Assembly: GCA_017408025.1 (NCBI GenBank)
Contig: JAFQVJ010000030.1
Span: 1-64,000 of the forward strand
Reading direction: 5' to 3'
From: Lachnospiraceae bacterium
Lineage (GTDB): Bacteria; Bacillota; Clostridia; Lachnospirales; Lachnospiraceae
DNA: 64,000 nucleotides
In this document: positions 17,290-21,619 of the stretch, one piece after another
How the letters are laid out: each line of letters starts with the position of its first letter
How positions within the stretch are numbered: position 1 is the first letter of the stretch
Translations under genes and position numbers: made by a program
Notes under the pieces: generated by a model
What the model was told of the DNA's origin: nothing
The model's database searches: none
The model's input: the letters and a program-made list of their open reading frames with translations, nothing else

Positions 17290-17943
17290 TTATCTGTCAT
17301 TTATAATAGCTACTGTGGCACTTGTACCAAGTCGGTCCGCACCTGCTTCAACCATTGCCATAGCTGTTGCGCTGTCTCGAATACCTCCAGAAGCCTTGAC
17401 AAATGCATTATCGCAAACAACTTCTCTCATAAGCGAAACGTCGTTTATCGTTGCGCCACCAGTGGAGAAACCTGTAGAGGTTTTAACGAAGTCAGCTCCT
17501 GCCTCCAGAGCCAGCTTACATGCGATCCTCTTCTCTTCGTCACTTAATAAACATGTCTCGATAATTACTTTAAGAGTAATCGTACCTTTCTTGCATACAT
17601 TACGCACAGCTTCAATATCATTTTTTACAGTATCGTAATCTTTGTCCTTTAAAGCGCCAATATTGATAACCATGTCAATCTCGTCCGCACCATCTTTTAT
17701 GGCAAGCTCTGTTTCGAAAGCTTTGACTTGGGACGACACCGCACCAAGAGGAAAGCCGACAACGGTACATACCTTTACATCGCTGTTAGCCAGCGTTTCT
17801 GCTACTTGCTTGGTTCGATATTGGTTAACACATACTGATGCGAAGTTGTGCTCTAAAGCTTCATTGCAAATTCTGTCTACGTCAGCAGATGATGCGTCAG
17901 GTTTTAATATAGTGTGGTCAAAAAGTTTTGAGTTTAATTTCAT
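17290..17943 (-). CDS. deoC: Deoxyribose-phosphate aldolase
   Basis: A 217-residue class I aldolase that splits deoxyribose 5-phosphate into glyceraldehyde 3-phosphate and acetaldehyde. Diagnostic parts are [32 protein letters not shown], the Schiff-base lysine in [14 protein letters not shown] and VKASGGIRD. The GAAAGGA site precedes the ATG. It is convergent with purA and has no other nucleoside-catabolism gene beside it here. Confidence 0.95.
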
Positions 17944-18034: not shown

Positions 18035-18063
18035 TTGTCATAAATGGATAAATATGTTAATAT
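18035..18063 (+). promoter_or_regulatory. Promoter of the candidate non-coding RNA
   Basis: TTGTCA, exactly 17 bp, then TAATAT. The expected start point (18069-18071) coincides with the first base of the closing helix of the RNA described next. Confidence 0.7.
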
Positions 18064-18068
18064 TTATA

Positions 18069-18450
18069 TGAGATTTCAAGAATATTCGGTGGTGTACCAC
18101 TCGACACTGCTGCGAACAGTGCCGAGCAAAGAGGGTAAACTAGCTACCACACAATACAGACAAAGTCTGCGATACACATGTATTATTATAAATGAAAATG
18201 CTTTTCTTTACAATAGTAAATGTGGTGTGCGGACAATTTCTCTGATCCTTTGTATTATAGATTTTGCATGAAGGGTGTAGGTGTGGTAAAACATGCTTAC
18301 ACCCGTTCTTGACTTCTCACTTCAGATAACTATGTAGCGGAGTGCACACCGCTGCATAGGTTATCTGTTGATGAGAGAAAGTTATACTGTATGTTTAGTA
18401 TAAAAGACATGTATTAAAAAAGACGATTTCTATGTGGAAATCGTCTTTTT
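18069..18450 (+). ncRNA. Candidate structured non-coding RNA, class not recognised
   Basis: A transcript of about 380 nt bounded by a promoter and a terminator, with no credible gene inside. Helices I can see: a closing stem TGAGATTTCAAG (18069-18080) with CTTGACTTCTCA (18308-18319), ten pairs around a 2x2 internal loop; GTGGT (18089) with ACCAC (18146); CTCGACACTG with CAGTGCCGAG (18100-18126), one mismatch; GTCTGCG...CACAT (18165-18179) with ATGTG...GCGGAC (18220-18234); GGGTGTA (18273) with TACACCC (18298). After the closed core come a long hairpin CAGATAAC...GTTATCTG (18323-18367) and the terminator. I found no match to RNase P, tmRNA, SRP or 6S hallmarks. Confidence 0.6.
18416..18450. 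terminator. Bidirectional terminator
   Basis: AAAAAGACGATTTC and GAAATCGTCTTTTT form a perfect stem around a 6-nt loop, with A and T tracts on both sides. It ends the candidate RNA on the plus strand and can end the small membrane-protein gene on the minus strand. Confidence 0.9.
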
Positions 18451-18453
18451 CTG

Positions 18454-18522
18454 GTTATATAGGATTAGGGCTTTTGAAACCCTAATAAGTGTAGAAGAGT
18501 TTTCAAAATTCTCCTATATAAC
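18454..18522 (+). repeat. Compound hairpin repeat (copy 6)
   Basis: GTTATATAGGA (18454-18464) faces TCCTATATAAC (18512-18522). Inside lies a second stem ATTAGGG/CCCTAAT with loop CTTTTGAAA. The outer arms match the dispersed family, so this copy looks like a family hairpin with a second hairpin inserted or duplicated within it. Confidence 0.6.
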
Positions 18523-18535
18523 AAAAATACGCTGT

Positions 18536-18766
18536 TTACTTACAATTATTTTCTGCATCCTCGTCACGTATTTGTTGGCCTTTTTTCTTCAAGTATTTTG
18601 CAACCTGAAGATATATCCACATCATAACAGGAAGTATAATGTTGGCAGCCACGGCGGCCATGAAAAATCCATTTGATACAGGACTTCCAACTATGGCTGC
18701 AATAAGGGTTATTACATATAATGCAACTAATATAACTATACATAAAATCGCAAGTATTCGTTTCAT
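18536..18766 (-). CDS. Small two-helix membrane protein
   Basis: A 76-residue protein starting MKRILAILCIVILVALYVIT, with two hydrophobic segments (about residues 4-26 and 32-52) and a charged C-terminal tail. GAAAGGA lies eight bases before this ATG on the minus strand, so the longer upstream frame is not used. I do not recognise a family. The two-bases-shared spacing with a repeat and a terminator shows it is a single-gene unit. Confidence 0.65.
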   Translation of the reverse strand: MKRILAILCIVILVALYVITLIAAIVGSPVSNGFFMAAVAANIILPVMMWIYLQVAKYLKKKGQQIRDEDAENNCK

Positions 18767-18966: not shown

Positions 18967-19068
18967 ATGAAGGGATATGTGGTGCCACAGGGATATATGG
19001 GTTATGTAGAGGGAGCATATAGATTGTTTCCAAGTGAAGCAGAGTACATAGAATATATGGAAGAATAA
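18967..19068 (+). CDS. Small 33-aa protein, function unknown
   Basis: A short frame reading MKGYVVPQGYMGYVEGAYRL then FPSEAEYIEYMEE. AGAAAGG sits nine bases before the ATG. The peptide is rich in Tyr and Gly, ends acidic and has a regular, protein-like composition. It resembles very small conserved proteins of Lachnospiraceae, but I cannot name the family. It is convergent with the PBP gene, which ends 98 bases away. Confidence 0.55.
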   Translation: MKGYVVPQGYMGYVEGAYRLFPSEAEYIEYMEE

Positions 19069-19165
19069 TAAAGATTTTGTAGAGACTTTAATTATTCCTC
19101 CATATTGTAACACGTTATAGTAACTGATTCTACATTGGCAGAGCCAACACTGAAGTTGTATCTTT

Positions 19166-21619
19166 TCAAATAAAGTTGCCATATTCATCAGTTTCAGATT
19201 CTACAGAGTTGTCTTCATTTATGAGATTGCCGTTCTCGTCGGTTTCAGATTCTATGGTGGAACCATCATGATCTGTTGCCTGTTCAATAAGATTGCCATA
19301 TTCATCAGTTTCGGATTCTATAGGGTTGCCAGCTTTGTCTGTTGCCTGTTCAATGAGATTGCCATATTCATCAGTCTCAGATTCAATAGGGCTATTTGGG
19401 TTAATGAGATTACCATTCTCGTCGGTTTCGGTCTCAATGAGGTTACCGTTTTCGTCAGTTTCAGGTTCAGGTTCAGTAAGATTACCGTTTTCATCAGTTT
19501 CAGGTTCAATAAGATTACCATTTTCATCGGTCTCAGGCTCAGTGGTTTCCTGTGGGATAGTCTCGTCCATGGTGCTGACAGTAGGAATATAAGTGCCGAT
19601 ATCTACCTGAGGTAAATCTGTATGTAGATATGTCATATATGAGCTCCATATTTTTCCGGCACATGTTGTTGCAATTCCATCATTCATTTCGCGAGGAAGA
19701 TCATAACCACACCACACAGCGGTAGTGTAATAGTAGCTGTAGCCAGTAAGCCATGAGTCATAGTTGTTATTGGTAGTACCAGTTTTTGCAGCGCAGATTG
19801 CGTTATCTATCTGATATTTGCGACCAGTTCCACGGTCAAGTACGCCCTTTAAAACGTTTGTCATAGTGTTGGCTGCATTCTCATCATAAATAATACGTGT
19901 ATTGATAGTGTTACCCGTATTGTCAATGATAACATTTCCTTCGTCATCAGTGATTTTTAATATACAGGTTGGATTTCTATAGACGCCATTGTTTTGGAGA
20001 GTTGAGTAGGCGGCAGCCATCTCGTATGATGAAGCTCCGTATGTAAATCCACCCAATGATGCTGCGGGAACATAGTCCGTATTGACTATTTTTGAAAAAT
20101 TCATTTTCAGTAAATAAGAAAGGCAGGTATGAGTGCCTATAGTGTCAAATATTTTCCAAGCAATGGTATTTTTTGACTTTTCAACAGCTGTTCTTATATC
20201 TATTTCACCAAGATATGTTTTGTCGGCATTAGATGGACCACCTTGAAATTTTTCGTCAATGACAATGGTGTCAGGTGTATATCCTCGCTCAAATGCAGGT
20301 GTATACACGATAAGCGGTTTGATACTACTACCAGGCTGTCTGAAGCTCTGGAAGGCTCTGTTTAGGCTATAGCCTGCGTGCTCCTGCTCACGACCACCAA
20401 CTATGGCAACCACAAAACCTGTCAGATTATCAATAGTAGTGGCACTAGCCTGAAAGGTATATATGCCTTCATCATTTGTTTCAGTGTAGTCTGACAGGGT
20501 AGAGTTGACAGTGGCTTGTAACTTGGCCTGTTTTGTCATGTCGATGGTTGTATATATTCTGTAGCCACCAGTAAATAACAGATTGTTGCAGTAGTTGTAT
20601 TCTGTGGCATAATATTCGTTGTAAGCTTCCTTGGCTTCTTCTGAAGAGAATTCATAGAGGAAGTTAAAGCCTCTGGCTCTCATGAGTTCCCTTGTAGCAC
20701 AATATCGTACAAAAGTTTCCACATAATCATGTTTGATATCCTCGCTTGGTGTGAGGATAATGGTTTCGTTTATTATCTCATTATAGAGAATTTGATCGAT
20801 TTCGCCCTGCTCGTAGAGCACCTTGGCCATAAGGTTGCGTCTGCTTAGTGTTGAGTCAATATTGGAAAATGGATCATATTTTGAGGGGCTGTTGGGAATG
20901 GCACAAAGAAAGATCATCTCCGAATTAGTCAAATCAGTGACGGTTTTGTTAAAATATCCCATGGCAGCAGCCTCTATGCCGTAGAAACCATTTCCAAAAT
21001 AAATGTTGTTAATGTAAAATTCAAGAATTTCATCCTTGGTATAAGTGTCTTCAAGCTCCGTTGCTATGAACATTTCCTTAACCTTACGCTCTATGGAAAC
21101 CTCATGAGAGAGGAAAATATTGCGGGCAAGCTGCTGAGTAATGGTACTTCCACCCTGAGTTACTTCACCTTCATTCTGGATAAGAGCAATAAAGGCTCTG
21201 AAGATGGCCTTGTAATCAAGACCAGAATGTTCATAGAAGTTCCTATCCTCGGTGGTGACAAATGCACGCTTTATCAGATAAGGAATCTCCTCACTAGTTA
21301 AATAATAGGAGTCTTTTTCGGCACACAGATTGGCAATAATTTCCCCATTGGTGTCATAGACAACGGTGGTAAGGCTTTGTTTGAAGGCATCCCTATTGGA
21401 TACCAGTTCCGATGCGTAATTCTTATACTCAACCATCATAGAACCATATTTTATTAAGACAAAAAGGCACACTAAAAGTGTGCCTGCAAGTATCAGCTTT
21501 AAGCCAGTCTTTATTCTCTTTTTAGCGATGCTCCACTTGGTAGAAGACTTCTTTTGGGAAGAAGCTTTATTGTTGCTGGAAGACCTTTTGTGAGAGCCTT
21601 TCTTAGACTTAGTGCTCAT
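19166..21619 (-). CDS. Class A penicillin-binding protein (glycosyltransferase/transpeptidase)
   Basis: An 817-residue PBP1a-type enzyme that polymerises and cross-links peptidoglycan at the outer face of the membrane. A basic cytoplasmic start is followed by one membrane helix (about residues 37-60). The GT51 domain has EDRNFYEHSGLDYKAIF and GGSTITQQLARN. The transpeptidase domain has SxxK as SSIK, SxN in KSKN and KTGT in AAKTGTTNNN. The last 120 residues are an acidic repeat of ETDENGNL/ETDEYGNL units. The stop comes right after ETDEYGNFI; a continuation is open in another frame. GAGGA precedes the ATG on the minus strand. Confidence 0.93.
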   Translation of the reverse strand: MSTKSKKGSHKRSSSNNKASSQKKSSTKWSIAKKRIKTGLKLILAGTLLVCLFVLIKYGSMMVEYKNYASELVSNRDAFKQSLTTVVYDTNGEIIANLCAEKDSYYLTSEEIPYLIKRAFVTTEDRNFYEHSGLDYKAIFRAFIALIQNEGEVTQGGSTITQQLARNIFLSHEVSIERKVKEMFIATELEDTYTKDEILEFYINNIYFGNGFYGIEAAAMGYFNKTVTDLTNSEMIFLCAIPNSPSKYDPFSNIDSTLSRRNLMAKVLYEQGEIDQILYNEIINETIILTPSEDIKHDYVETFVRYCATRELMRARGFNFLYEFSSEEAKEAYNEYYATEYNYCNNLLFTGGYRIYTTIDMTKQAKLQATVNSTLSDYTETNDEGIYTFQASATTIDNLTGFVVAIVGGREQEHAGYSLNRAFQSFRQPGSSIKPLIVYTPAFERGYTPDTIVIDEKFQGGPSNADKTYLGEIDIRTAVEKSKNTIAWKIFDTIGTHTCLSYLLKMNFSKIVNTDYVPAASLGGFTYGASSYEMAAAYSTLQNNGVYRNPTCILKITDDEGNVIIDNTGNTINTRIIYDENAANTMTNVLKGVLDRGTGRKYQIDNAICAAKTGTTNNNYDSWLTGYSYYYTTAVWCGYDLPREMNDGIATTCAGKIWSSYMTYLHTDLPQVDIGTYIPTVSTMDETIPQETTEPETDENGNLIEPETDENGNLTEPEPETDENGNLIETETDENGNLINPNSPIESETDEYGNLIEQATDKAGNPIESETDEYGNLIEQATDHDGSTIESETDENGNLINEDNSVESETDEYGNFI
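19175..19540 (-). repeat. Tandem acidic repeats in the PBP C terminus
   Basis: Eight ETDE(N/Y)GN units occur, spaced by I/T-E-P, N-P-N-S-P-I-E or Q-A-T-D inserts. Unit length varies between 11 and 22 residues. The DNA repeats closely as well, so slippage or recombination can change copy number. Repeated Asp, Glu and Asn with Gly could bind cations at the cell wall, which is inference only. Confidence 0.85.

Follow-up and report, generated by a model that had tools for sequence, protein, structure and literature searches.

The stretch of DNA analysed here, 64,000 nucleotides from a Lachnospiraceae bacterium and called the window below, encodes a real structured RNA of a new family at positions 18035-18450, as judged by comparing its sequence with that of its relatives. 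Most members of the family look like switch-like leaders with a promoter of their own, standing before genes that often encode surface or secreted proteins, and we consider the family to be probably a new leader RNA that acts in cis, is built like a riboswitch and was spread as a promoter-leader cassette. That the window holds a real structured RNA had been claimed in an earlier note made from the window sequence only, and the claim was confirmed by compensatory changes in most helices, by the homologues and by the conserved promoter.

All parts of the RNA lie on the forward strand. The promoter (18035-18063) consists of a -35 box TTGTCA (18035-18040), a spacer of 17 nt and a -10 box TAATAT (18058-18063), which is preceded by TG as an extension. 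A single promoter match taken alone is weak evidence for an RNA gene here; promoter-type matches numbered 19 in 3 kb, against 11.6 expected. The closing helix, P1, has its 5' strand (18069-18083) at the expected transcription start and its 3' strand at 18305-18319, and the promoter with 17-bp spacing reported earlier to start at the edge of a closing helix was found as described, with the extended -10 in addition. In the minimum-energy fold of the window copy P1 was present, with 18069-18073 paired to 18315-18319 and 18076-18083 to 18305-18312, and the helix proposed at 18069-18080 with 18308-18319 is thereby formed. P2 pairs GTGTA (18092-18096) with TACAC (18173-18177). The hairpin P3 (18100-18126) is a helix of variable sequence with ten pairs, of which one is a mismatch in the window. 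It is followed by the hairpins P4 (GGTA with TACC, 18134-18148) and P5 (CAGA with TCTG, 18157-18169), and by P7 (18273-18304), a hairpin with a conserved GTGTGG element. The long hairpin and the strong terminator claimed behind the closing helix were recovered at 18323-18367 and at 18417-18450, respectively, both from the window sequence, the former in the place of a hairpin called P8 in the relatives and the latter with a U run and bidirectional in the fold.

The region 18069-18452 was more stable than its shuffled versions (z -8.1, none of 100 shuffles as good), and so was 18069-18320 (z -5.7, none of 200). Among the helices conserved in the family, P1 and P7 were present in the minimum-energy fold of the window, P7 with seven of its seven pairs, and P2, P3, P4 and P5 were absent from it with 0/5, 0/10, 0/4 and 0/4 pairs formed. 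A fold constrained to hold P2-P5 reached -120.3 kcal/mol, which is 13.5 less stable than the unconstrained -133.8 kcal/mol. The inner helices of the earlier note need correction in this respect. As a coding gene we considered and rejected an open reading frame of 75 amino acids (18044-18271), which crosses covarying helices and suffers insertions and deletions among the copies.

The initial relatives came from a nucleotide search of 61 genomes, that of the window included, which gave one locus in each of three other genomes (L003-L005). A covariance model, R1, was built on the 111-nt core of these four copies. It matched 22 of 397 genomes from the bacterial family of the window and, in wider draws, 6 of 392 genomes from the order (all six from the same bacterial family), 2 of 391 from the class (the second being G091) and 2 of 398 from the phylum (the second being G1319), the window's own genome being counted each time. 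The window core scored 115.9 bits, a value to be read with the window, like L003-L005, being a training sequence of R1. A pattern scan of GTDB gave 80 loci among the matches listed (the header of the scan itself states 87 stretches). The titles of these 80 were mostly Lachnospiraceae, genera of that family, Clostridia or Eubacteriales, and mostly of metagenome-assembled genomes, with a few isolates, for instance Acetatifactor muris DSM 23669 (locus L132). Two carried names from other phyla, Muribaculaceae (L085) and Gastranaerophilales (L121), which are possibly binning errors. Within 26 genomes picked as positive, 19 had one copy, four had two, one had three and two had five. Of 120 model matches in total, 106 were distinct copies and were used for comparison. 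Large stretches of the core were nearly invariant. An origin from phages or plasmids was rejected, as 50,697 phage and 72,556 plasmid records contained no blastn match to 18035-18455; a pattern search found a single viral contig, L036.

Covariation was assessed in two alignments. In the core alignment, A5, comprising 83 distinct cores, 96.7% of the pair cells were standard and the covariation score was above that of every one of the 500 shuffles. Of the five measures two failed, since doubly changed pairs were reached by 12 and further pair types by 497 of the 500 shuffles. The full-length alignment contained 64 of 78 copies left after filters for length, energy and redundancy. Here 91.1% of cells were paired and both sides had changed in 34 of 47 pairs. 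The covariation score was reached by none of 500 shuffles and all five measures by 0 to 3 of 500, and when the partners were slid against each other pairing fell to 31-49%. Compensatory changes were seen in P1, P3 (9 of 10 pairs, in the core alignment as well), P4 (3 of 4 pairs, with none in the core alignment), P5 (2 of 4 pairs) and P7 (all eight outer pairs), and one-sided changes to G-U in P1 and P7. The pairing of P2 was conserved in both alignments, with three compensatory cells in the full-length one and none in the core. RNAalifold, run independently, predicted 39 pairs, and 30 of these showed compensatory changes. We dropped P6, a helix in the middle (columns 141-160 of A7) in which just 65.9% of the cells were paired. 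For the closing helix we also compared native pairing with pairing to swapped partners, using the 99 of 106 copies with at least 330 nt downstream, and the native pairing was better in 87 of them.

The promoter was tested as TTG, 16 to 18 nt and nAnnnT within 60 nt upstream of each copy, with windows located 200-500 nt further upstream as controls. It was found before 98 of 106 copies and in 57 of 415 control windows, and the fit between promoter and helix edge is thus a trait of the family. The promoters of these 98 copies were also uniform in build: the spacing was 17 nt in 96 of them, an extended -10 was present in 95, and the -10 box of 86 copies ended 4-7 nt ahead of the first base of the model.

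Two observations were made on the genes around the copies. Firstly, by automatic call the first downstream open reading frame was co-oriented with the RNA in 76 of 94 copies, some of which may be false. The gene upstream also tended to point the same way, in 60 of 90 copies (Fisher p 0.03 between the two). The 18 downstream exceptions, and only these, were re-read by eye; 14 had a co-oriented candidate frame, and no convincing one was found for the window copy, L053, L060 and L140. The second observation was that the proteins downstream were enriched in starts resembling signal peptides. By a home-made rule such starts occurred in 45 of the 76 co-oriented downstream proteins, in 25 of 96 upstream proteins (p 1.2e-5) and in 19 of 73 second downstream proteins (p 6.2e-5). 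A Pfam scan, which took in 72 of the 76, found BspA-type repeats in 11 downstream proteins; Ig-like, choline-binding and zinc-ribbon domains occurred in five each. Among the 96 upstream proteins each of these four was matched by one or none. Other targets differed, e.g., a TPR protein and an ABC permease according to their translations (the former also by Pfam), and the 72 proteins shared no single common function or metabolic theme in Pfam. Downstream genes were up to 2098 codons long.

A strict scan placed a terminator before the gene in 33 of 76 co-oriented cases. In 59 of 82 copies a U run separated P1 from the start codon, which in the other 23 was reached without one. The earlier proposal of a free-standing RNA held for the window copy, with its terminator and no gene behind it as judged by sequence, and was not supported for the family, with 76 of 94 copies before a co-oriented frame and 14 of the 18 re-read ones in addition. 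Extended to the whole family, that proposal would make all copies trans-acting RNAs with their own promoter and terminator, which would stand before surface genes simply because cassettes happened to land there. The window copy, having a promoter, an intact core, a terminator and no following gene, is what one would expect then, as are the terminators that come ahead of the gene in at least 33 of 76 cases and the large core stretches that scarcely vary. We nevertheless consider it an unlikely account, given that 76 of 94 copies, perhaps 90, precede a co-oriented gene, that 23 of 82 lack a U run ahead of the start codon, and that a second partner is possible for the 3' strand of P1.

This possible partner lies downstream of P1 in the relatives and could form P8 with the 3' strand of P1. 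Among cells of that strand departing from the consensus, 44 of 144 had both partners changed and yet made Watson-Crick pairs in P1 as well as in P8, a count inflated by register shifts. The search for the best pairing also favours finding P8, and the swap control is therefore the fairer figure: the own partner was better than a swapped one in 65 of 89 copies, with a modest gap (-16.4 against -14.8 kcal/mol). In L149 and L059 the segments forming the strands of P1 and P8 visibly change together. The minimum-energy folds of single copies went either way: those of L003 and L005 contained P8, those of L004 and the window P1, and the P8 of the window is a weak one (-8.3 kcal/mol). We also looked for masking of the ribosome site by the 3' strand of P1 and found none, native and swapped pairing being equal. 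An antiterminator between the P8 tail and the terminator region was also considered, native pairing outdoing swapped pairing in 54 of 80; it was set aside and is not relied on, because many of the best matches were the terminator hairpin itself. In several loci, among them L109, L126, L089 and L108, a segment past the terminator (such as CTCCGGTT or CTCTGG) complements the P8 tail (ATCGGAG, CCAGAG) and seems to change together with it. In L066, L124 and L138 the U run after P7 also belongs to the 3' strand of P1, and P7 followed by this U run resembles a terminator inside the element.

From the promoter, the structure and the gene orientation, all read directly in the sequences, we infer how such a leader would be expressed and would switch. 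RNA polymerase would start at the extended -10 promoter held at a near-fixed distance and produce a domain some 250 nt long that P1 closes and that contains the core P2-P5 and the hairpin P7. The expression platform 3' of P1 would then decide whether the next gene is produced, the 3' strand of P1 being paired to the 5' end in one state (P1) and to the downstream segment in the other (P8), often with an intrinsic terminator further on. With a putative input bound, P1 would be held and transcription would continue; otherwise P8 and the terminator would form. P1 would accordingly be the state that permits reading of the gene, a direction that is itself deduced.

The input need not be a small molecule. 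A leader with the same cis-acting part could answer a protein or an antitermination factor, in keeping with downstream genes of up to 2098 codons, terminators that need to be passed and targets that share no metabolic theme. We hold this to be a lesser possibility, as the 96 upstream neighbours include no recurring regulator family and, in our judgement, the large, closed and conserved core is more like a ligand pocket, points that are both non-exclusive.

Returning to the probable leader cassette, its boundaries are supported by sequence in some genomes. Alignments of the closest copies within G036 and within the CASEML genome start about 43-73 nt upstream of P1 and extend to 337-400 nt past it, beyond which the genes differ; for one pair of G036 the alignment begins at -123 and stops early where the contig ends. 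For most copies of G118 and G416 the alignment is confined to the core, and in the pair L099/L122 the likeness continues into the gene. A unit of promoter and leader would thus have been copied before unrelated genes, often those for surface and secreted proteins. Dispersed copies, one to five per genome in the 26 genomes picked as positive, would also be expected of a mobile DNA element that needs the folded form for its movement and is transcribed incidentally, and so would the position of the window copy between two genes that adjoin each other in G001. This explanation appears highly improbable to us in view of the promoter at a near-fixed distance, the one-sided G-U changes in P1 and P7, and the orientation toward the next gene. 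Resolvase domains were seen in 2 of 96 upstream neighbours.

In the window the RNA lies between, and in antisense to, two genes of the reverse strand. The divergent upstream neighbour (17290-17943) we take to be deoC, a name that comes from the earlier note and from recall, and the convergent neighbour (18536-18766) encodes a small membrane protein. In G001, of the same genus, the homologues of the two genes adjoin 12 bp apart with no RNA between them, and the RNA may have been gained in the window genome or lost in G001, both of which fit. The link to deoC suggested by the earlier note was ruled out: all eight same-genus genomes have deoC homologues, the model finds the RNA in the window genome and G006 only, and in the latter it is about 25 kb from deoC. 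Behind the terminator of the window copy there are just two frames, of 80 and 67 codons, both antisense to the small membrane gene. Farther away, a forward 33-codon frame with a good ribosome site (18968-19069) lies about 500 nt past the terminator, and the reverse-strand gene of a class A penicillin-binding protein (19166-21619) encodes ETDENGNLI-type repeats at its C-terminal end (19166-19570). With promoter and core kept, no gene behind and a weak P8, the window copy should give a free RNA of about 380 nt if transcribed; it may be a recent orphan or a trans-acting RNA. If the family is a switch, such stand-alone copies would show a route from leader to free RNA.

One distant relative, L171, was found in another class. 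Its score with R1, 44.8 bits (E 2.9e-7 for its genome), is independent, which the score with the model R2 is not because R2 includes L171. By eye the order of helices is the same and the letters differ. The RNA (L171:1501-1941) is followed by a frame of 75 to 92 codons and then by a TnpB/Cas12f-like protein with a Cas12f1-like TNB domain. It is a single case: a search of 38 relatives of that genome did not find it, a search for its pattern gave no viral contig, and the contig of L171 is possibly misassigned.

At gathering score, Rfam gave no match to the window or to L003-L005, which sets aside its known families, among them RNase P, tmRNA, SRP, 6S, T-box and known riboswitches; the earlier failure to match the first four was thus upheld, and the Rfam search proposed at that time gave no family. 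With E values up to 10 the best value for the window was 0.069, located over the terminator region. At relaxed E, eight homologous loci gave a single match, a TwoAYGGAY RNA (L024:235-401) on the same contig as one copy of the new RNA and outside it. In the literature consulted, including PMC8040213, PMC11109978 and PMC8632094, the RNA is not described in the parts available to us, and supplementary tables of the surveys may list it unnamed. The closest objects are the candidate structured RNAs of human microbiomes in PMC8040213, which are likewise gut-bacterial and outside Rfam; unlike the present family, they are presented in a main text with no word beginning Lachnospir, and an unnamed overlap in its tables is possible.

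If the family is a switch, one signal would set the surface and secreted proteins displayed by these gut bacteria, and the cassette would be placeable before any gene; for finding the input the family supplies more than 100 natural variants. It is plausible, if short of probable, on the sequences at hand that the RNA is a ligand-binding riboswitch class new to Rfam, a mobile promoter-leader cassette that gives surface and secreted proteins of gut Lachnospiraceae a common signal, with freed copies as stand-alone RNAs and a distant cousin before a TnpB/Cas12f-like gene.

OLE, ROOL, GOLLD and raiA are large bacterial RNAs of unknown role, several hundred nucleotides long, ornate and patchily distributed. 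The new RNA resembles them in size, in its ornate fold and in its patchy distribution, and the window copy also in standing alone; it differs in that most members precede a gene and in that the loci tested have no Rfam match. In Clostridia, c-di-GMP riboswitches precede surface-protein genes. The new family differs from riboswitches in lacking an Rfam match and in the promoter of its own that travels with the RNA, and its window copy in having no co-oriented gene to lead. The family otherwise shares with them a conserved, covarying and closed domain in the 5' leader of a co-oriented gene, a closing-helix strand with a possible second partner, an intrinsic terminator that often comes next and, in some genomes, several copies before different genes.
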